Assembly: GCA_945905925.1 (NCBI GenBank)
Contig: CAMDQN010000023.1
Location: 1 to 61,199 of the forward strand
Source of the DNA: Singulisphaera sp. GP187
Lineage (GTDB): Bacteria > Planctomycetota > Planctomycetia > Gemmatales > Gemmataceae
Direction of reading: 5' to 3'
Length of the DNA: 61,199 bases
Position numbers and translations under genes: made by a program. This document shows positions 10,703 through 51,886 of this stretch, piece by piece. Numbering within the stretch: position 1 is the stretch's first letter; the number at the start of each line of letters is the position of its first letter. The notes beneath the pieces were generated by a model. It worked only from the letters and a program-made list of their open reading frames with translations. It did no database searches and had not been told where the DNA came from.

Positions 10703-11243
10703 TCGCGCACCCAGATCGCCGGGAGGCTCGATCACATATTTCGCGTGAAGGCGACTCGGAGCCAAACCGTCTGCGGAGGATCGTGATGAGATTATTCCGC
10801 TGTGAGATCGTCCCGTTATTGGTGATCGGGCTGTGTCTCGTTGTGGCGGCCGCATCGCAAGAGAAGCCAGCGGCCCCGCCCGCGCTGTTCCAAGAAGACC
10901 TGATCCGGGCGAAGTACGGCTACGCCTACGGTATCGCCGCGGCGGATCTCGACGGCGACGGCGACCTCGATCTCGTCAGCTCCGACACCACGGATGACAA
11001 GACGCCGAAGAAGGACAACGGCGCCCTGCTGTGGTTCGAGAACGACGGCAAGGGCACGTTCACCGAGCACGTGATCGCGAAGAACGAGGACGGCTGGTTC
11101 GAGCGCCTCGCGGTCGGTGACATCAACGGCGACGGGCACCTCGATGTTGCCGTGGTGTTGAACCGTGCCGGCAGCATCATTTGGTTTCAGAACCCCGGTA
11201 AGCCCGCAACGCAGTCCTGGAAGCGACACGCCATCGTCAGTGG

Positions 11244-11263
11244 CCGATCTTTCCCAGATGAAC
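11244..11263. repeat. IS1380-family terminal inverted repeat, left
   Basis: CCGATCTTTCCCAGATGAAC; core TCCCAGATGA is shared with the right end. The same end sequence, inverted, closes the damaged second copy at 48837-48855. Confidence 0.85.
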
Positions 11264-11498
11264 GCCTCTGGGAACGCAAATCGGCTGTGCGGTCACAAAG
11301 TACCCCCGCGAAGGGTGGTCTGCAACAAGTTTCGCACCCGGAAGAGGTCCCGACTCCGGTCGAACGGTCCCCGAAACTACCGCCCCAGGCGTTTTTCGGC
11401 CCCAGATACGTCGAAAGCGGCTCAACAGGCGCACCGCGGCCCCTTGGCGACGTTGGTCAGCCACGATGGACGGATCGATTTCGCAAACGCTCCTACCT

Positions 11499-12836
11499 TC
11501 ACCCCGTGTCGCACGCCAGGCGCAACCGCCCGATGCGGGTCAGGATCGCCGCGAACAGTTTCCGCGGCACCGCCACTTCCGCCAACTGGAAGATCACGTA
11601 CTTCGAGTGCGACACGACCTTGGCCCCGATCTTGACGAGTTTCTCACGCAGAGTCGTCAGGCTCCAGTGTCGGATCGGCTTCGGGAGCGCCAACTGCCGC
11701 ACGAAGTTGGCCAGGTTGTAGGCCAAGGCGAACAACTGCAACCGGGCCGCGTTGTTCCGGAACCGGCGGCACGACAACTTCGTCCAGTTCACCGCGTTCT
11801 TGCCTTCCTTGATCCACTGTTCCGCCGTACCACGCTTGTTGTAAAACTGGACCACACGCCTTGAACGCCATTTCAGGTTGGTGACGACGAACCCGATCCG
11901 TGGGAACAACTCACCGGCGTGCCACGCGATCTGCACCACCACCCGGCGGTCACGGTCCCACGACCCGGCCCGGTACCGGAAGCTGTGGTAGACGCACTTC
12001 GGCTTCCCCGACGGCCGGCCCACGGGACGTGTCAACCAGGGTAAGATCTTCCGGTCCAGAACGGGGTTGGACTTGAGCCGGATGGCGTACCGGAACCCGT
12101 TCCCCTCCAGCACCGCGAACAACTTGGGGAATGCGAACGCCGAGTCCCCGCGGAAGAACTTGGGGATGTCCTGGTCCCGGTACCGCTCGATCACCGGCAC
12201 CAGCACCCGCCGCCAGTACTTGGCACTGGCGTGGTTCCCGCGGCGGAGCATCGCGCGCTCCAGGTCGCCGAACTGGTTGAACAGGAACAACGGGTGGTAA
12301 CAGGTGCACTCGAAGTAGCCGTTGTACGCCGACCCCTGCTGACGCCCGTAGGTCGGGCTCACCGAACTGTCCATGTCCAGAATGAGTTTCGTGAGTTTGC
12401 GATGCCGGTGGGCACGGTCGATCCACGCGCCGGGAAGGTCGATCAGGTGCTTCAGGTTCTCCTTGGTGCTGAGGGTCTGGGTCTCGAACCGTGCCATCTC
12501 ACTGGTGGATGCCGCGGTGGCCTCCTTGGCCCGGCCGCCGACCACGGCCCGCATGGCCGGATCGACGCACAGGCGCTCGGCGTCGTTCACGTCCTCGTAC
12601 CCGGCGAGTCGGCTGTAGATGGACTGACGGAGGAGGGCTTGCAGGTCGTGTTGCGTGTTCCGGCCGGTGCGGGAATCGTGTAGGCCGGTCGCGGCGGTGG
12701 TGGTCAATCCGAGTGCGTCGTCGAGTTCGCGGTAGGCGAGGAGGCCGGCGTCGCTGGTGACGGTCGAGCCGTGGAACTCCAACTTGATCTCGCGGTCGAA
12801 ATCCACGCGGAGTGAGTCATTTCGGCGGTCACCCAT
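11499..12836 (-). CDS. IS1380-family transposase (445 aa)
   Basis: DDE transposase of the IS1380 group, acting on the element's own ends in the cytoplasm. Recognisable blocks: STVTSDAGLLAYRELDDALG near the N-terminus, the first catalytic Asp in LILDMDSSVSPTYG, SAYNGYFECTCYHPLFLFNQ, the second in FFRGDSAFAFPK, and the Glu-bearing GTAEQWIKEGKNAVNWTK. The length is normal for the family and there is no internal stop, so this copy may be active. About 255 bp between its stop and the left terminal repeat appear non-coding. The copy at 46512-48604 is nearly identical where it can be compared. Confidence 0.93.
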   Translation of the reverse strand: MGDRRNDSLRVDFDREIKLEFHGSTVTSDAGLLAYRELDDALGLTTTAATGLHDSRTGRNTQHDLQALLRQSIYSRLAGYEDVNDAERLCVDPAMRAVVGGRAKEATAASTSEMARFETQTLSTKENLKHLIDLPGAWIDRAHRHRKLTKLILDMDSSVSPTYGRQQGSAYNGYFECTCYHPLFLFNQFGDLERAMLRRGNHASAKYWRRVLVPVIERYRDQDIPKFFRGDSAFAFPKLFAVLEGNGFRYAIRLKSNPVLDRKILPWLTRPVGRPSGKPKCVYHSFRYRAGSWDRDRRVVVQIAWHAGELFPRIGFVVTNLKWRSRRVVQFYNKRGTAEQWIKEGKNAVNWTKLSCRRFRNNAARLQLFALAYNLANFVRQLALPKPIRHWSLTTLREKLVKIGAKVVSHSKYVIFQLAEVAVPRKLFAAILTRIGRLRLACDTG

Positions 12837-12922
12837 TGGGTCCCTCGGTCATTTCGGCAGGGAATGGTCGGAAACGCTGGGAATCCCAGGGTTCCGGCGC
12901 ACATGCCGTGCCGAAAGCTGAA

Positions 12923-12942
12923 GGTCATCTGGGAGATAGGGG
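12923..12942. repeat. IS1380-family terminal inverted repeat, right
   Basis: The reverse complement reads CCCCTATCTCCCAGATGACC, matching 15 of 20 positions of the left repeat. It is followed by the second copy of AGTGG. Confidence 0.85.
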
Positions 12943-13753
12943 AGTGGAGGTCTGCCCGGCGCGTACGACGTCGCGCTCGGCGACTTCGACGGCGACGGTC
13001 GGCTCGACGCGGCCGCCTCGAGCTGGACGCGCGGCAACCGCTTCGTGTGGTATCGCAATCCCGGAAAGGAAGGCTTCGAGAAAGAGTGGCCCGTGCGGGT
13101 CATCGAAGACAAACTCAGCGAGACGCGGACCGTGTGCGTCGCCGACTTCAACGGGGACGGCCGCCCGGACGTGCTCGGCACCGCCAGCGCGGCCCCGCTC
13201 GTGGCCTGGTACGAGAACGTCGGCGCACGCGGCGAGCTTCCCACCTGGAAGAAACACGTTGTCAGCACGACGGCGGCCCCGGTCCACGGGCGACCGGCGG
13301 ACATCGACGGAGACGGGGATGCCGACGTCGTAATGGCTCACGGCATGCGCGACGGGTTGGCTCCGCGTGCGAAGCACCAAGTCGCCTGGTACGAGAACGT
13401 CGGCAAGCCCGGCAAGGGCACGGAGTGGAAGCAGCACGTTGTTGGCGCGTTGGCCGACGCCTTCGAGGCGGTCGCGGCCGACCTTGATGGCGAGGGCAGG
13501 CTCGACATCGTGGCCACCGCTTGGGGGCCCGCGGGGCGAGTGGTCTGGTTCCACAACCCGGGCGATCCGAAGAAATCGTGGCCGATGCACACGTTGAAAG
13601 ACAAATGGCCGAACGCGAATTCGGTGATCGTGGCGGATTTCAACGGGGACAAAAAGCTCGACCTCGCGGCGACGGCGGAGCGTGGGGCGAATGAATTTCG
13701 CTGGTGGAAGAATCTGGGCGACCGATAATCGCGTTTGATACCGGAGGTCGTTC

Positions 13754-20723: not shown

Positions 20724-21921
20724 GGTGGTGACCTACTTGCGTTGTACGGTGGGGTAGGTCAGCCACTGGTAGAGTGACCACACGTGATCGGTCAAGCCGG
20801 CGGCCATCGCGGGCGTTCGCTTCTGCCACCGACCGTCCTCGCCCTTCACGCGCAGGGTCCGCACCGGCCAACAGAAGTTGTAACTGAAGTAGCTGAACGC
20901 GGTCGCGGCGTGATGGACGTCCCAATCCTTCGAGAACCCGTAACTCTTGCGCGCCTTGCGGCTGCACCGGTTCCGATCCGTCCCGTTGTGCCGCTCCACG
21001 AAACTCGTGTTCACGACCCGGCCGACCGCGGACGCCGCCACGGCCCGGGCCACCGCCACCGCCGTCCCGAACACCGCCCGCGTACTCACCCGCACCACCC
21101 GGTTGTTCTCCTTCTCCTTGTGAACGGTCGCGTACGTGAGCGCCGGCGGGATCACCGTGCGTGGCTTCCGGGGTCGACCCGGACGACCCGTCCGCGGTGG
21201 CACGACCACGTGCCCGTACGCGTCCCGGATCGCGTCCTCGTACACCGGGTACTCGTCGGAGGTCATCAGCCGCATCACGCGGTTCCCGGTTCGCCGCCGG
21301 AAGTCCCGTACCAACGCTCGCGTCGCCTCGGCCGTCCGCTTCCCGACCACCAGGCTGACGACCAGCCGGCTCTCGGGATCGAGCGCGACGTGGTCCCAAC
21401 AGTCCCACGCCGAGTGTCGTCGCGTTCACAGTTCTTCTGCTTTCGGGCGACGAACGCCCACTTCTCGTCGAACTGTACCTCCGTGGTCGTCGGGGGAAAA
21501 AGCGACCAGCTCGTCGTGCAATTCGGCGGCGTGATCGCCGGCGCGTCGGGTGTATCGGGTGACCGTGTCGGTATGAACGCCGGTGAGCCGGGCCGTCTTG
21601 CGCGTGCCGATCCCTTCGGCCACGTGAGCCAGGACGGCGGTCACCTTCGCCGTGGGCAGCCGCGTGCCGAACAGGGGCGTGCCCTTGCGCTCGGAGAAGC
21701 GTGCCTTGCAGGTCCGACAGCGGAGCATGCGGCGCGTCTGGCCGGGTCCGTAACTCGCGGTCACGGTCAGGTTGCCGTGCCCACGCTTGCCCAGGTCGGC
21801 GCACGCCGGATTCAGACAACAGAACGCACTCAGGTCGTCCACGATCAGCCTCCGCTCCAGCTACGGGAGGCCGCACTCTACAACGAAACCCAAGCGCCTA
21901 CAACATTCAAAGGACACCACC
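20724..21921 (-). mobile_element. IS1-like insertion sequence with inactivated transposase (about 1198 bp)
   Basis: The ends are set by an inverted repeat: GGTGGTGACCT at 20724 and, on the other strand, GGTGGTGTCCT from 21921 inward, with a second matching patch GTTGTA. No convincing target duplication could be found in the flanks, so the ends may be off by a few bases or one flank may have been lost. The element lies between an intact DUF1501 gene and a gene lacking its 5' end. The same GGTGGTG end, followed by a related C-terminal coding stretch, recurs at 46437-46511. Confidence 0.7.
20733..21842 (-). pseudogene. IS1-like transposase with two compensating frameshifts
   Basis: From GTG 21842: an N-terminal zinc-ribbon-like part (FCCLNPACADLGKRGHG and later RCRTCKARFSERKG), then an HTH-like stretch (RKTARLTGVHTDTVTRYTRR). 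At a run of five C (minus strand, 21492-21496) the expected continuation SPTTTEVQFDEKWAFV is found in the next frame. At 21404-21406 the expected RRGDCWDHVALDP needs one more G. Downstream, LVVSLVVGKRTAEATRALV, TSDEYPVYEDA and VERHNGTDRNR are back in the first frame. The out-of-frame segment ends in TGA 21426-21428 for the original frame, so a single protein cannot be made without recoding. A sequencing error is the alternative. Confidence 0.75.
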
Positions 21922-45026: not shown

Positions 45027-45822
45027 GCCGGTCCGCCTGACCACCGACGGCAAACTGAAGCAGGATCCGGTGTACCGCCGAGACGGCGACCTCGTCTACA
45101 CCCTGCTCGAATCGCCGATTCTGATGCGTCTGATGCGGCTGAAGGCGGGGGAGAAGAAGCCGGTGGTCCTTCACTCGGACGCGACCACGAACGAGTTCGA
45201 GGCGACGTTCACCGCCGAAGGTTCGCACTACGCCTTCGTCCAGAGCCGCGGCAACCTGAACATGAAGCTGGTTATCCGCGACACGGCTACCAGTAAGGAC
45301 TCCGTGTTCGACCCCGGCGGCGGGTTCGCCGCTGTGCGCCGTCCCAGTTTCCACCCGAAGGGCGACCGCGTCGGCTTCGCCATTCCGTCTGCGAACGGGC
45401 AGGAGATCGCGACCGTCGGGCGGGACGGCACGGACCGCAAAAAGCTCACCAGCGGCGGCATCAACAACTGGCCGGCTTACTCCCCGGACGGCTCCCGCAT
45501 CGCCTTCTGCTCCAGCCGCGACGGGGAGTTCGACCTGTACGTCATGAACGCCGACGGCACCGACGTGAAGCGGGTTGTGAAGCTGAACGGCATGCAAGCG
45601 CGGCCGTGCTGGTCGCCCGACGGCAAGCGGATCGCGTTCACTTGGAACGCGGACGGCCGGTACGACATCCACGCCGCCAACCTCGACGGCACCGGGTTGC
45701 GGCGGCTGACCGACGGGTTCGAGCGGGCCGATTACCCCACTTGGCACCCTGACGGCACCGCGCTGGCGTTCGTCGGTGAACTGAGCGGTCGGTTCGACCT
45801 GTACCGCGTCGCCACGGGATGA
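45013..45822 (+). CDS. TolB-like beta-propeller (PD40 repeat) protein (269 aa)
   Basis: ATG 45013 lies inside the end of the DUF1501 gene. PD40/WD40-like repeats dominate: YSPDGSRIAFCSSRDGEFDL, VMNADGTDVKRVV, WSPDGKRIAFTWNADGRYDI, NLDGTGLRRLTDG and WHPDGTALAFVGELSGRFDL. No signal peptide is visible, which is odd next to exported partners and may mean a cytoplasmic protein, or that the true N-terminus is missing. TolB-type propellers are generally protein- or ligand-binding. The downstream 47 bp are followed by a truncated gene. Confidence 0.87.
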   Translation: MNFSKPVRLTTDGKLKQDPVYRRDGDLVYTLLESPILMRLMRLKAGEKKPVVLHSDATTNEFEATFTAEGSHYAFVQSRGNLNMKLVIRDTATSKDSVFDPGGGFAAVRRPSFHPKGDRVGFAIPSANGQEIATVGRDGTDRKKLTSGGINNWPAYSPDGSRIAFCSSRDGEFDLYVMNADGTDVKRVVKLNGMQARPCWSPDGKRIAFTWNADGRYDIHAANLDGTGLRRLTDGFERADYPTWHPDGTALAFVGELSGRFDLYRVATG

Positions 45823-45869
45823 GTCGCGTACCAAGAAGCGGAATTCCCTCCGTGCCTCAGAAGAGGTAG

Positions 45870-46436
45870 GGTGCCGGTCTTGGCGATCCCGGTCTCACTC
45901 CCGACGCGAAACCGGCCTTCAACTTCGACACCAAATCCCACGATCCGGCCTACATCCTCGCGCTCGCCGACCTGTATCGCGTCCACCGTCATCCGGACAC
46001 GTTGAAGTTCATGGAACACCTCGGCCGCAACGTGATTGCTCACCGCCACGATCCGAAGTCCGGCCTGTTCGTCCACCACCCGGATCACCTCCACACCATC
46101 CGCCTCAACAAGAAGACCAAGGAGGCCGGGGAGGGGCTAACCGTCCGCGAAACCCTTCATCCCAGTTTCGGCTACGATCGCCCGAAGGTCGTGGCTCTCG
46201 ACGTCGTTGAACCGCTTGCCCTGCTCGCCGTCCATGCCTGCCGGACCGGCCAGTTCGACAAGATCCCGCAGTGGCTCAGCGGTGGACTTTGGGGCGCTGA
46301 TTCCTCGGGCCACGTGATCAGCCACGACCTCGAACGCTGGTTCGACCGCCCCAAGCTGGAGGCCCACTACAAGGAGCGACGAGAGTGGCTCAAGGAGAAG
46401 GGTTATGTAATCGATAAGGAATGGTTTCCGAAATAA
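45870..46436 (+). pseudogene. C-terminal fragment of an unidentified enzyme-like protein
   Basis: An open frame begins after the TAG 45867-45869 and shows coding character from about LTPDAKPAFNFDTKSHDPAY, with no start codon and no leader. It runs LADLYRVHRHPDTLKFMEHL, HRHDPKSGLFVHHPDHLHTI, PSFGYDRPKVVALDVVEPLA and ends KEWFPK at TAA 46434-46436. The helical, His- and Trp-containing pattern suggests the end of an alpha/alpha-barrel or pectate-lyase-like secreted enzyme, but I cannot name it. An IS1-like end begins at the base after its stop, so the stop context may itself be altered. Confidence 0.55.
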
Positions 46437-46511
46437 GGTGGTGGATCAGATTAGCGGACAAGGTTTGGCGGGGTAGGTGAGCCATTCGCGGAGTGTCCAG
46501 ATGTGGTCGGC
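46437..46511 (-). mobile_element. IS1-like element, one end only (75 bp remnant)
   Basis: It starts with the terminal GGTGGTG also found at both ends of the IS1-like element at 20724-21921. On the minus strand it encodes LADHIWTLREWLTYPAKPCP and a stop, homologous to the C-terminus LTDHVWSLYQWLTYP of that element's transposase. It stops abruptly at an IS1380 fragment. Confidence 0.7.
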
Positions 46512-46930
46512 CAACCCCGTTCTGGACCGGAAGATCTTACCCTGGTTGACACGTCCCGTGGGCCGGCCGTCGGGGAAGCCGATGTGCGTCTACCACAGTT
46601 TCCGGTACCGGGCCGAGTCGTGGGACCGGGACCGCCGGGTGGTGGTGCAGATCGCGTGGCACGCCGGCGAGTTGTTCCCGCGGATCGGGTTCGTCGTCAC
46701 CAACCTGAACGGGCGCTCGCGGCGTGTGGTCCGGTTTTACAACAAGCGTGGCACGGCGGAGCAGTGGATCAAGGAAGGCAAGAATGCGGTGAACTGGACG
46801 AAGCTGTCGTGCCGCCGGTTCCGGAACAACGCGGCCCGGTTGCAGTTGTTCGCCCTGGCCTACAACCTGGCCAACTTCGTGCGGCAGTTGGCGCTGGGGT
46901 AGGCGTGGCTTTCGTTAGTGGTCGTTTGTA

Positions 46931-48321
46931 TCAAGCAGCGGTGGATCGTCTCCAGAAGTCGGTCCACTGGCTGTGTTCGCTGCGATACAACGCTCGGACG
47001 TGGCAAACCGCGTGCGCCCCGGCCTCGCTCCAACGCATCCCCGATCCCTTCATCCGTTGACCCACCACCGTCTTACACGCGCTCTCCACCGCACCCGAGC
47101 CGATGTACCAACCCTTCGCCTCGTAACTCGGGTAATCCATCCGGTGGACCTGGTTACGGAAGTAACCCAACACCTCCTCACGCACCGATCCCGAACCCTT
47201 CACGCTCGGCCACGCCCAGTTCTCCAACACTGCGATCATCACCTCACCGCCCTCTTCGCGTAACACACGCGACCACGCCTTCGTCTGTTCCAACGCCCTG
47301 TCCTCGTCTTTGGGATGCAACACCGCCGACAGTTTCGCCAGGTATTCCGCCGCGTGATAAAAGTCCAAGATCACGGCCTCCACACGCGGGAAGTTCTCAC
47401 GCACGAAGTCTTCCAACCCACTCCCGCCATCGCACAACGCGACCCACACCTCGGCCCGATCCAGACCCACCTGTGCACCTTGCTTGCGTAACAACGGACC
47501 CATTTCCGCCAGCGGATACAAGCCGCTGATGTATCTCGCACGCATTTTCTCACCCGGCTTGGGCCACGACTCGAAGACACGCTCTTCGTCTGGCAACGGG
47601 TTGAAGACCATGCCCACGTATGCCATCCGACCATCGGCTCGCACGCCGCCAGGCCCCTGTTGACGTACCCCAGTCGCGTCGATGCCGATGTAACCAACCG
47701 TGCGTCCGCAAGCGTCCCGGAACCAACTCCACGTCTGCTTGCCCCCGAAAGTGCGTCCACTCTGGATGTGTTGCGAGATTCGCTGGCCTGTGGCTTGTGT
47801 GGTTTGCTCGACAGTCGTTTCACTCAATCGGATCCCTGCCGTCTCATGTAAGAGTTCGGCCCCCTTCTCGAAACTGTCGGCGACTGCCCCGCACAACGTG
47901 GCAAGTCGTTCCAGTGCGGGTGATAACCGCTGAGGTGTCAATCCAACGCGGGCGTCCCAGGGGCAGGAGCCTTTCCCGCAGACGCCGCAGTAGTAGTACG
48001 CGCGGTTGCACGTGACCGCCCCGCCGAGCGTCTCGACCGTTTTTTCGCGGTACCCGTGGAAGGTGGCAGAGCGTCCGCAGGAGCAGTCGATGGCGGAGGT
48101 GGTGTATCCGCTTTTTTTGGGAGATGCTCGGCATAAGCGTCGGCAACGATGCCAAGAGTTTGGTCGCGGAGAGCGAACTCGGTGTCTCCGAAGAGCGTGT
48201 CGTCGGTGGTGGCAACGAGGCGACGTGCCATTTCGAGGATGGCCTCGGCGGACCGGGCTTTGATTCGTGCTGCGAGTTCCTGGGCTTTGGCTTCCAACTC
48301 AGGGTTGAGCGGCTCTGACAT
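46931..48321 (-). CDS. ISKra4-family transposase made by -1 frameshift (two overlapping frames)
   Basis: The first frame starts at ATG 48321 (MSEPLNPELEAKAQELAARI) and would run on alone to 47938. At seven A on the minus strand (48118-48112) a -1 shift joins it to the long second frame, which from there reads KKSGYTTSAIDCSCGRSATF, a zinc-finger-like CNRAYYYCGVCGKGSCPW and then LTPQRLSPALERLATLCG. Downstream are GYIGIDATGVRQQG, LCDGGSGLEDFV, ILDFYHAAEYL and the family signature GQRMKGSGMRWSEAGAHAVC. The joined product is about 465 residues, normal for ISKra4 transposases. The second frame has no start of its own at the shift point, so recoding is needed. Confidence 0.85.
48112..48118 (-). promoter_or_regulatory. 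Candidate -1 ribosomal frameshift (slippery) site, A7
   Basis: On the minus strand the sequence is CTCCCAAAAAAAGCGG. Reading CCA AAA AAA GCG in the first frame and AAA AAA AGC after slipping back one base connects two frames that each carry clear transposase sequence. Transcriptional slippage on the same run would give the same product. Confidence 0.7.
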
Positions 48322-48864
48322 CACAGGCTCCTGCCGGGGAATTCCACAACGTCATTCTAAACTACACCGAACTGAACACATTTCCCACCAACTATTGCAA
48401 CGCCTACCCTTGGCGCTGCCGAAGCCGATTCGGCACTGGAGCCTGACAACTCTGCGTGAGAAACTCGTCAAGATCGGGGCCAAGGTCGTGTCGCGCTCGA
48501 AGTACGTCATCTTCCAGTTGGCGGAAGTGGCGGTGCCGCGGAAACTGTTCGCGGCGATCCTGACCCGCATCGGTCGGTTGCGCCGGGCGTGCGACACGGG
48601 GTGAGGTGGTCGCGGCTGCGAAATCGATCGGTCCATCCGGGTCGGCCATCGCCGAGGGGTCGCGGTGCGCCTCGCGGGCCGTTTTCGACGTATCCGGGGC
48701 CGGAACATGCAGGGCGCGGTGGTTGGGGGAGCCATTCGACCGTGGTCGAGATCTCATCCGGGCACGAAACGCGTTGCAGGCGACCCGTCGCGGGGGTAAT
48801 CTGTGACCTCACGGCCGATTCGTGTCCCCAGAGGCATTCATCTGGGAAAGATCGGACAATGGCC

Positions 48865-48913: not shown

Positions 48914-51886
48914 ATGATTCGTTCCGTTGTCTGCACCGCCCTTGTCCTTCTCGTTTCGCCTCTCGTCGCCGCGCCGCCCGACTTCGACAAGCAAATCGCG
49001 CCGCTGCTCGCGTCGCGGTGCCTCGACTGCCACAGCGGGGCGAAGCCGAAAGGCGAGCTCGATTTATCTCGCAAGGCCGGCGCGTCTGCCGCCGTCGTGG
49101 CGGGCAAGCCCAAAAGCAGCGCGCTGTGGGAGCGCGTCGCGTCCGGCGAGATGCCGCCCAAGAAGCCGCTCCCGGAAGCCGAACAGAAGCTTCTCAAAGA
49201 GTGGATCGAATCGGGGGCGAAGTGGGGCACCGATCCCATCGACCCGTTCCGCTTCACCACTTCGACGCGCGCCGGCTACGACTGGTGGGCGCTGCAACCG
49301 ATCGTACGGCCGAAGGTGCCCGAAACACCAAACACTAAACACCAAACGCTTAACACGATCGACAAGTTCATCGTGGCGAAGCTGAGTGACAAGGCGTTGT
49401 CACTGGCGCCGGAAGCGGACCCGCGCACGCTGATTCGGCGCGTCTACTTCGATCTCGTCGGGCTCCCGCCCACACCGGCAGAGGTCGATGCGTTCGTGAA
49501 GGACCGGGCGCCCGACGCCTATGAAAAAGCGGTGGTGAGGTTACTCGCGTCGCCGCACTACGGGGAGCGCTGGGCGCGCCACTGGCTCGACGTGGTGCGC
49601 TACGGCGAAACCGACGGCTTCGAGCGCAACACGCCGCGCCAGAACTCGTGGCGCTACCGCGACTGGGTGATTCGCGCCCTCAACGCCGACATGCCTTACG
49701 ACGAGTTCGCGAGGCTGCAACTCGCGGGCGACGTGCTGAAGCCGAACGACCCGGACGCGGTGAAAGCGACCGGCTTTTTGGTCGCGGGCGTTCACAACAC
49801 CGTGCTCGGCAACGACCAGATGCGCGCCGTCGCGCGCCAGGACGAACTCGAAGACATCGTCGGTGGGGTCGGACAGACCTTCCTCGGCCTCACCGCGAAC
49901 TGCGCGCGCTGTCACGACCACAAGTTCGATCCCATTTCGCAAACGGACTTCTATCGGCTCGCGTCCGCGCTCGGCGGCGTCGGGTTCGGCGAGCGCGCGA
50001 TTCCCGAAGCGAAAGCGTCTGCCGAGATCGCGCGATTGGTGAAAGACCTGGACACGGTCGCGAAGGAACTCGCCGCGCTTGAGGAGCCTGCACGCAAGGC
50101 GGTTCTCGCCGAGAAGGGGACGGGGAAGCTCGCGGCCAACGCGCCTTCACCGGTGGCCGCGTGGGACTTCCGCAAGAGCGGTGACGACCTCGTCGGCAAG
50201 TTGCACGCGAAGCCGATCGGCGGCGCGAAATTCACGCCCGACGGTGCGGTCCTCGACGGCAAGACCGCACTGTTGCAGACCCCGCCGCTACCCGTCGATC
50301 TGAACACGAAGACGCTCGAAGCCTGGGTGAAACTCGACAACCTCACGCAGCGCGGCGGCGGTGTCATCTCCGTGCAGACGCCCGACGGCACGACGTTCGA
50401 CGCGATCGTGTTCGGCGAGAACGAACCGGCCCGGTGGATGGCCGGGAGCAACGGCTTCGTGCGGTACAAGTCGTTCGGCGGCACCGAGGAAAAGGACGCG
50501 GCGAAGGAACACGTTCACTTCGCGGTCACGTTCAGCGCCGACGGCACCATCACCGGCTACCGTAATGGCGAGTTGTACGGCAAAGGCTACGCATCGAAGG
50601 GCTTGGCGGCGTTCAAGGCGGAGAAAGCGGTGGTCGTGTTCGGGTGCCGTCACGAACCGGCCGGCGGGAACAAAATGCTCGCGGGCACCGTGAGCGTCGC
50701 CCGGCTCTACGACAAGGCACTGTCACTCGAAGAGGTGCAAGCGTCATTCAAGTCCGGCGGCGGGTTCGTGAGCGACGCGGAGATTGAGGCAAAGCTCACG
50801 CCCGAACAACGCACTTCGCGAGGTACACTCCGCAAGCGGCACGACGCGCTCGCGGGGCAACTCGGCGCGCTGACGCAGCGCGCGACGGGCGGGAAAGCTT
50901 ACGCGAACGTGCCGCTGCCGCCGGGAATCACGCGGTTCCTCGCGCGCGGCGACCTCGCCACGCCCGGTGCGGTCGTGGCGCCTGCGGGCCTTTCCTCGGT
51001 GGACGGCCCGCGCGCGGACTTCGATCTGAAGCCTGACGCGCCCGACGCGGACCGGCGGAAGAAGCTCGCGGAGTGGATCACCGCGCCGAACAACCCGCTG
51101 TTTAGCCGCGTCATCGTGAACCGCGTGTGGCACTACCACTTCGGCGTCGGGATCGTCGACACGCCGAACGACCTCGGCTTCAACGGCGGTCGCCCGTCGC
51201 ACCCGGAACTGCTCGACTGGCTCGCCAGCGAGTTCGCCGAACACAAGTACAGTCTGAAGGCGCTTCACAAGCTCATCGTCACTTCGGCAACGTACCGTCA
51301 GGCGTCCGCGCCGCGCAAGGACGCGAGCGCGACCGACGCGGACAACCGGTTGCTGTGGCGGTACAAACCGCACCGGCTCGAAGGCGAAGCCGTGCGCGAC
51401 GCGATGCTTGCCACCTCGGGCTTGCTCAACCCGGAGGTTGGCGGGAAGGGGTTCAGCGACTACAAGATTCGCGACTTCAACGGCACCGCGTACTTCGACC
51501 CGTTCGATCCGATCGGCCCCGAGTTCCACCGGCGGAGCGTGTACCGGTTCACGCCGCGCGGCGCGAATCAGGGGTTGCTCGACACGCTCGACTGCCCGGA
51601 CCCGGCCGCCGCGGCCCCGCGCCGCGCGATCACCACCACACCGCTGCAAGCACTCGCGTTGTGGAACAACGGCTTCGCGCTGCGCGCCGCGGATGCGTTC
51701 GCGGTGCGTGTCGCGAAGGACGCCGAGGGCGCGGAGAAGCAAGTTCGCCGCGCGTGGCAACTTGCTTACCAACGCGACCCCGCGGCGGACGAAATGAAAC
51801 TCGCGGCGAAGCTCGTAGCCGACCACGGGTTGAAGGCGCTGTGCCGCGTGCTGTTCAACAGCAACGAATTCGTGACGGTGGAGTAA
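48914..51886 (+). CDS. PSCyt1/DUF1549/LamG/DUF1553 secreted cytochrome-type protein (990 aa)
   Basis: A signal peptide covers residues 1-20. PSCyt1 has CLDCH at 36-40. DUF1549 has DLVGLPPTPAEVDAFV and YGERWARHWLDVVRYGETDG and ends in CARCHDHKFDPIS. Between DUF1549 and DUF1553, residues about 412-600 form a LamG/concanavalin-like domain (VAAWDFRKSGDDLVGKLHAK, LEAWVKLDNLTQRGGGVISV, HFAVTFSADGTITGYRNGEL, ARLYDKALSLEEVQASF), absent from the three paralogues here. DUF1553 starts near NPLFSRVIVNRVWHYHFGVG. It is the longest paralogue. The DUF1501 partner follows 3 nt after the stop. The LamG domain suggests a carbohydrate or other surface ligand. Confidence 0.93.
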   Translation: MIRSVVCTALVLLVSPLVAAPPDFDKQIAPLLASRCLDCHSGAKPKGELDLSRKAGASAAVVAGKPKSSALWERVASGEMPPKKPLPEAEQKLLKEWIESGAKWGTDPIDPFRFTTSTRAGYDWWALQPIVRPKVPETPNTKHQTLNTIDKFIVAKLSDKALSLAPEADPRTLIRRVYFDLVGLPPTPAEVDAFVKDRAPDAYEKAVVRLLASPHYGERWARHWLDVVRYGETDGFERNTPRQNSWRYRDWVIRALNADMPYDEFARLQLAGDVLKPNDPDAVKATGFLVAGVHNTVLGNDQMRAVARQDELEDIVGGVGQTFLGLTANCARCHDHKFDPISQTDFYRLASALGGVGFGERAIPEAKASAEIARLVKDLDTVAKELAALEEPARKAVLAEKGTGKLAANAPSPVAAWDFRKSGDDLVGKLHAKPIGGAKFTPDGAVLDGKTALLQTPPLPVDLNTKTLEAWVKLDNLTQRGGGVISVQTPDGTTFDAIVFGENEPARWMAGSNGFVRYKSFGGTEEKDAAKEHVHFAVTFSADGTITGYRNGELYGKGYASKGLAAFKAEKAVVVFGCRHEPAGGNKMLAGTVSVARLYDKALSLEEVQASFKSGGGFVSDAEIEAKLTPEQRTSRGTLRKRHDALAGQLGALTQRATGGKAYANVPLPPGITRFLARGDLATPGAVVAPAGLSSVDGPRADFDLKPDAPDADRRKKLAEWITAPNNPLFSRVIVNRVWHYHFGVGIVDTPNDLGFNGGRPSHPELLDWLASEFAEHKYSLKALHKLIVTSATYRQASAPRKDASATDADNRLLWRYKPHRLEGEAVRDAMLATSGLLNPEVGGKGFSDYKIRDFNGTAYFDPFDPIGPEFHRRSVYRFTPRGANQGLLDTLDCPDPAAAAPRRAITTTPLQALALWNNGFALRAADAFAVRVAKDAEGAEKQVRRAWQLAYQRDPAADEMKLAAKLVADHGLKALCRVLFNSNEFVTVE

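Follow-up and report, generated by a model that had tools for sequence, protein, structure and literature searches.

Insertion sequence remnants in a planctomycete contig: a complete ISKra4-family element inside an IS1380 fragment that a probable microhomology deletion has joined to an IS1-like end

The stretch analysed here, called the window, comprises 61,199 nucleotides of contig CAMDQN010000023.1 from Singulisphaera sp. GP187. The genome is a draft of 6.47 Mb in 251 contigs, 96.6% complete. A stack of insertion sequences is located between a TolB-like gene on the left, which ends at 45822 and is separated by a 47-bp spacer from position 45870, and a planctomycete PSD1/PSCyt gene on the right, which starts at 48914, to the right of the IS1380 right end at 48855. 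Profile searches identified PSCyt1, PSD1 and DUF1501 genes in the window. No RNA family reached the gathering score between 45000 and 49500. The original prediction had described a truncated gene, an IS1-like end, an IS1380 fragment and an ISKra4 element within it, and profile, repeat and alignment evidence recovered all of these pieces in their predicted places.

45870-46436, plus strand: 3′ remnant of a pectate-lyase-2-like gene, 188 amino acids and stop (PF06917 and UBA7890 homologue)
46437-46517, minus strand: right (3′) end of an IS1-like element, including the last part of its transposase frame (G006 match, GGTGGTG terminus)
46511-46517: CCAACCC microhomology at the IS1-like/IS1380 joint, a 7-nt overlap with the G006 element as proxy
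46511-46896, plus strand: first surviving part of an IS1380-family element, through the left 9-bp duplication (alignment to the full copy)
46888-46896, plus strand: left 9-bp target duplication TTGGCGCTG (single copy in G015)
46897-48409, minus strand: complete ISKra4-family insertion sequence, 1513 bp (terminal inverted repeats and ISKra4 model)
46931-47941, minus strand: main part of the ISKra4 transposase, counted from the first start codon, probably entered by a -1 shift
47938-48324, minus strand: ISKra4 ORF1, encoding the transposase N-terminus (layout shared by 13 of 14 loci examined)
48112-48118, minus strand: A7 run, CCC-AAAAAAA-GCG, putative -1 slip site
48410-48418, plus strand: right 9-bp target duplication TTGGCGCTG
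48410-48855, plus strand: remainder of the IS1380-family element with the transposase C-terminus and the intact right end GGGAAAGATCGG
48856-48860, plus strand: ACAAT, probable IS1380 target duplication, surviving side only (once in G003)
11244-12942, minus strand: complete IS1380-family reference copy
20724-21921, minus strand: IS1-like reference element, both ends present, no flanking repeat seen

The gene remnant at 45870-46436 matches PF06917 in Pfam with an E value of 8e-12, covering profile positions 382-454 of 491. Over residues 1-188 it is 65% identical to a protein of UBA7890, an Akkermansiaceae metagenome-assembled genome, the only homologue found in the genome collection, and the reading frame ends at the matching residue. 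The remnant represents the last 189 codons, including the stop codon at 46434-46436. Because this stop matches that of the Akkermansiaceae homologue, the loss is on the 5′ side, and the predicted pectate-lyase-2-like gene has lost its 5′ part and keeps its stop at the native place. The truncated gene had been said to end at 46436; the truncation was confirmed, and the break was relocated to the 5′ end, at about 45870. Searching the own genome at the DNA level turned up no other part of the gene (40 of 50 candidates scored), nor did a family search there yield further PF06917 parts (4 of 4 scored). PF06917 matches occurred in 4 of 149 genomes searched, the own genome included, three of them above the cut-off. 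A protein search with the truncated gene gave matches in one of 59 genomes, the own genome itself. A plasmid DNA search with 45823-46520 gave no match, and no element-free counterparts of the sites 45870 and 46437 were found.

Directly behind the stop codon, from 46437, lies the terminus of an IS1-like element, of which the outermost 74-81 bp remain; it extends to about 46510, with homology reaching 46517. A DNA search with 46430-46519 among 99 genomes resulted in four matches at E 0.01 or better, own genome included. The best of the others is the right end of an IS1-like element in genome G006, 88% identical over 49 bp (46469-46517, E 8.5e-11) and located where a two-part IS1-like transposase ends. 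The G006 element starts with GGTGGTG and ends with CACCACC. The minus strand of the remnant, read by hand, encodes LADHIWTLREWLTYPAKPCPLI and then a stop, compared with LADHVWSLHEWLTYPVVQRK and a stop in G006. IS1-like relatives of the remnant have the GGTGGTG terminus and a similar inward sequence, and the predicted terminus is supported by both the G006 match and the GGTGGTG motif. In the own genome, 46430-46519 has no significant match besides itself, the next one having an E value of 0.945. Four IS1-like protein matches at E 1e-15 or better were obtained there (30 of 37 candidates scored): C23:20736 and one on C92 are near full length for the query, one on C69 covers residues 71-216 with stops, and one on C28 covers residues 166-215. 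A copy that lacks only its 3′ (C-terminal) end was not among them. Likeness to the IS1 family lies in the GGTGGTG terminus of the remnant, the two-part transposase of a relative and a flanking repeat of 8 bp found beside one of the two G016 copies read. The differences are that the related full element scores below the curated cut-offs and that about 80 bp are left here. The element is named "IS1-like" because of these low scores (relative L035: 26.8 and 23.6 bits against NF033558, cut-off 100; 23.4 bits against PF03400, cut-off 24.1).

The IS1380 remnant (46511-48855) represents the right half of the element, 827 of 1699 bp, with an intact right end. It aligns to positions 873-1699 of the complete copy in the window, and the left 872 bp are gone. 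Profile searches gave an E value of 1.7e-34 for DDE_Tnp_1_4 and of 1.9e-33 for the NCBIfam IS1380 model; the latter score, 115.7 bits, stays below the cut-off of 180 because half of the protein is missing. The complete copy at 11244-12942 reaches 365.3 bits with the same model. It has inverted ends and a 5-bp duplication, CCACT, on both sides, and seems to interrupt an FG-GAP-like repeat gene (window 10783-13728, named by eye). The first surviving part of the remnant, 46511-46896, is 97% identical to a copy on C6 and 96% to the copy at C23:11686-12070. The C6 copy is full-length (94.6%) and showed no flanking repeat. Other copies in the own genome are an internal fragment on C91 and a copy without its middle at C6:83593-84047, and an orphan left half was not found (40 of 79 candidates scored). 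In the C6:83593-84047 copy, IS1380 positions 1-205 are joined to 1319-1567; it is possibly a small non-autonomous derivative or a decayed copy. The predicted fragment without its 5′ half is consistent with the alignment and the family-model matches. The transposase model places the element in the IS1380 family, which the complete copy also resembles in its 1699-bp length, inverted ends and 5-bp duplication; the copy in question differs by the missing left 872 bp and by an interruption. It is dead twice over.

The interruption is an ISKra4-family element with terminal inverted repeats of 25 bp that are 80% complementary (46897-46921 and 48385-48409). Its transposase matches NCBIfam NF033572 with 4.1e-66 and 223.8 bits, above the cut-off of 205. 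The element is bordered by the 9-bp sequence TTGGCGCTG at 46888-46896 and 48410-48418. Inverted repeats, family model and repeated 9-mer bear out the prediction of a complete ISKra4 element with a 9-bp duplication inside the IS1380 fragment. Two of 11 loci compared (L094 and L097) align over the whole 1513 bp.

Contig C656, binned in G015, another genome of the genus, is 99.7% identical to the window along 3151 bp to the right of the ISKra4 site. Beyond the site it reads on into IS1380, with TTGGCGCTG present once and without ISKra4, for which no match at E 1e-20 was found in G015. Since C656 shares bases 46629, 46680 and 46711 with the IS1380 copy of the window, against three other copies compared, sequence comparison identifies it as a natural unoccupied allele of this copy. 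In its last 294 bp, C656 agrees with the window at only 96%, and seven of the 11 differences are private to G015 relative to the copies covering the site. The contig stops at window position 46603, 85 bp short of the IS1-like/IS1380 overlap, so that the joint is outside it. The duplication and the unoccupied allele together demonstrate, at the level of sequence, an insertion of ISKra4 into IS1380. The predicted order, IS1380 first and ISKra4 into it, agrees with the geometry and with the G015 allele; because the contig carries the same IS1380 copy without ISKra4, IS1380 is the older. Two G015 contigs, C656 (L041) and C546 (L071), are 99.4-99.7% identical to the window. At one other locus compared, G015 and the own genome are 82-85% identical, and for this reason the two contigs may belong to a close strain and have been mis-binned, or they may stem from a recent transfer.

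The ISKra4 transposase is encoded in two overlapping frames. ORF2, in the -1 frame relative to ORF1, stays open on the minus strand between 48298 and 46934, and the frame switch is positioned at CCC-AAAAAAA-GCG (48112-48118). A search for relatives listed 51 matches and returned 30 loci. Fourteen of the 30, window included, were examined, chosen as near full length for the query. Thirteen keep the -1 overlap, with a run of C5A5, C6A4 or A5-A8 at the corresponding position, and two pairs among them share the same upstream sequence within one genome; the exception, L115, lacks the N-terminal part. Decay of the split transposase was rejected on the overlap and A-run conserved in 13 of these 14 loci. 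The element looks intact, and the transposase is probably made by -1 frameshifting at the A7 run. We take the article PMC3942029 to be Guerillot et al. (2014). According to that source, the ISMich2 group has two ORFs with a conserved -1 shift, and a target duplication of 8 or 9 bp is given for these transposons (PMC3942029). The window element resembles the ISMich2-type ISKra4 family in family model, 9-bp duplication and two ORFs with a -1 shift (p-MULT 4; PMC3942029); its placement in the ISMich2 subgroup rests on the two-ORF layout. This organisation is known biology. A partial relative (L091, 78% identical) is present in the own genome at C209:179-853; it starts just downstream of the slip site and its far end is cut.

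On the right, the sequence from 48855 onward, which is the 5′ region of the PSD1 gene, is colinear with genome G003. G003 has no IS1380 at the corresponding place and reads GACG-ACAAT-GGCTG, with ACAAT once. The right end of IS1380 can be placed well, as can its target; the left flank has been lost. The own genome has two PSD1/PSCyt paralogues that share 87% identity, at window 48914-51886 and at C92:22538-24576. The left neighbour of the G003 PSD1 gene is a different gene, whose best own-genome match is on C92 beside the PSD1 paralogue, and upstream the G003 gene is similar to the window copy, not to C92. The G003 gene may be orthologous to the C92 paralogue rather than to the window gene.

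The joint between the IS1-like end and IS1380 had been predicted as a point at 46511/46512. A joint is present; the point is replaced by a shared stretch of about 7 nt, CCAACCC (46511-46517), common to IS1380 and the IS1-like element, with the G006 relative standing in for the lost IS1-like sequence. At this position the IS1-like copy of the window reads GGTCAAGCC and several relatives read CAACCC. The overlap is only an estimate, as the lost sequence was deduced from a relative and the copies differ there, and the true overlap could be shorter. In 400,000 random joints between both sequences, at least seven shared bases occurred with a frequency of 9.5e-4 and at least six with 2.7e-3. A one-ended insertion of IS1380 into the IS1-like element was rejected, since the 5′ region of the PSD1 gene and not the rest of the IS1-like element comes after 48855. 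The reverse, a one-ended IS1-like insertion into IS1380, was rejected because the end of the pectate lyase gene, not IS1380, lies beyond 46437. Of the predicted "recombination or one-ended event", the recombination was retained and narrowed to a deletion across a microhomology of about 7 bp. As neither of the outer ends lies against the other element, a transposase product is unlikely; the joint is best read as a host-type deletion. Microhomology-mediated (illegitimate) deletions are known in bacterial genomes and leave a short shared stretch at the joint and no element end. The joint here likewise has a short shared stretch without an element end.

The deletion competes with a chromosomal rearrangement in which an inversion or translocation joined two distant places, with breakpoints inside both elements. 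The two sides are indeed not neighbours in G003, where contig C169 carries the DUF1501/TolB-like match and contig C203 the PSD1 gene, with another gene as its neighbour. However, paralogues of both sides are present in the own genome on C126 and C92, and the G003 contigs may be their orthologues. The search for missing halves that had been proposed as a check on a rearrangement between element copies was carried out and revealed no orphan left half of IS1380 (40 of 79 candidates scored), no IS1-like copy without just its 3′ end (30 of 37 scored), no further part of the gene (40 of 50 and 4 of 4 scored) and no reciprocal joint, so that this claim was not supported; a reciprocal joint could be missing from an assembly of 251 contigs and 96.6% completeness. 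The chromosomal rearrangement is considered unlikely. Recombination between IS1380 copies was rejected separately: it would yield a hybrid instead of a half, and the search gave no orphan half (40 of 79 scored). A joint made by the assembler at a repeat is conceivable in a 251-contig draft with several IS1380 copies, yet very improbable: nothing else in the own genome matches the IS1-like piece significantly (next E 0.945), at window 46583 the IS1380 piece is distinct from either full-length copy, and the shared stretch amounts to only about 7 nt. Usual assembly word sizes are far above 7 nt. Least probable of all is that the IS1 or IS1380 transposase made the joint by a one-ended event or an adjacent deletion, for although each element has kept one intact end, the breakpoints are internal to both and host sequence lies beyond each surviving end, and adjacent deletions made by transposases are known to begin exactly at the element end.

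The microhomology deletion, as part of a nest of insertion sequence debris with ISKra4 inserted in IS1380, is the preferred reading of the whole locus, with a probability of about 0.8. An IS1380-family element would have inserted 58 bp upstream of the PSD1 gene, with ACAAT as the probable target. Separately, an IS1-like element would have been present just behind the end of the pectate-lyase-like gene. A deletion from about 70-80 bp inside the IS1-like right end to IS1380 position 873, at CCAACCC, would then have taken out the remainder of the IS1-like element together with the left half of IS1380 and any intervening DNA. The ISKra4-family element entered the IS1380 transposase gene with duplication of 9 bp; the deletion is placed neither before nor after this step.

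The locus is a clean but ordinary insertion sequence scar, with nothing new in it and an ordinary mechanism. It provides a nest of elements with a partly datable order, and its joint is attributable to a deletion of host type, not to a transposase. The main consequence concerns annotation: the split ISKra4 transposase is better labelled as a probable frameshifted gene than as a pseudogene. Four of the five closest relatives examined have C5A5 at the slip site, in comparison with A7 in the window copy. A change from C5A5 to A7 in this ISKra4/ISMich2-like lineage is a doubtful suggestion; if true, it could raise frameshifting or add transcriptional slippage, altering the transposition rate.
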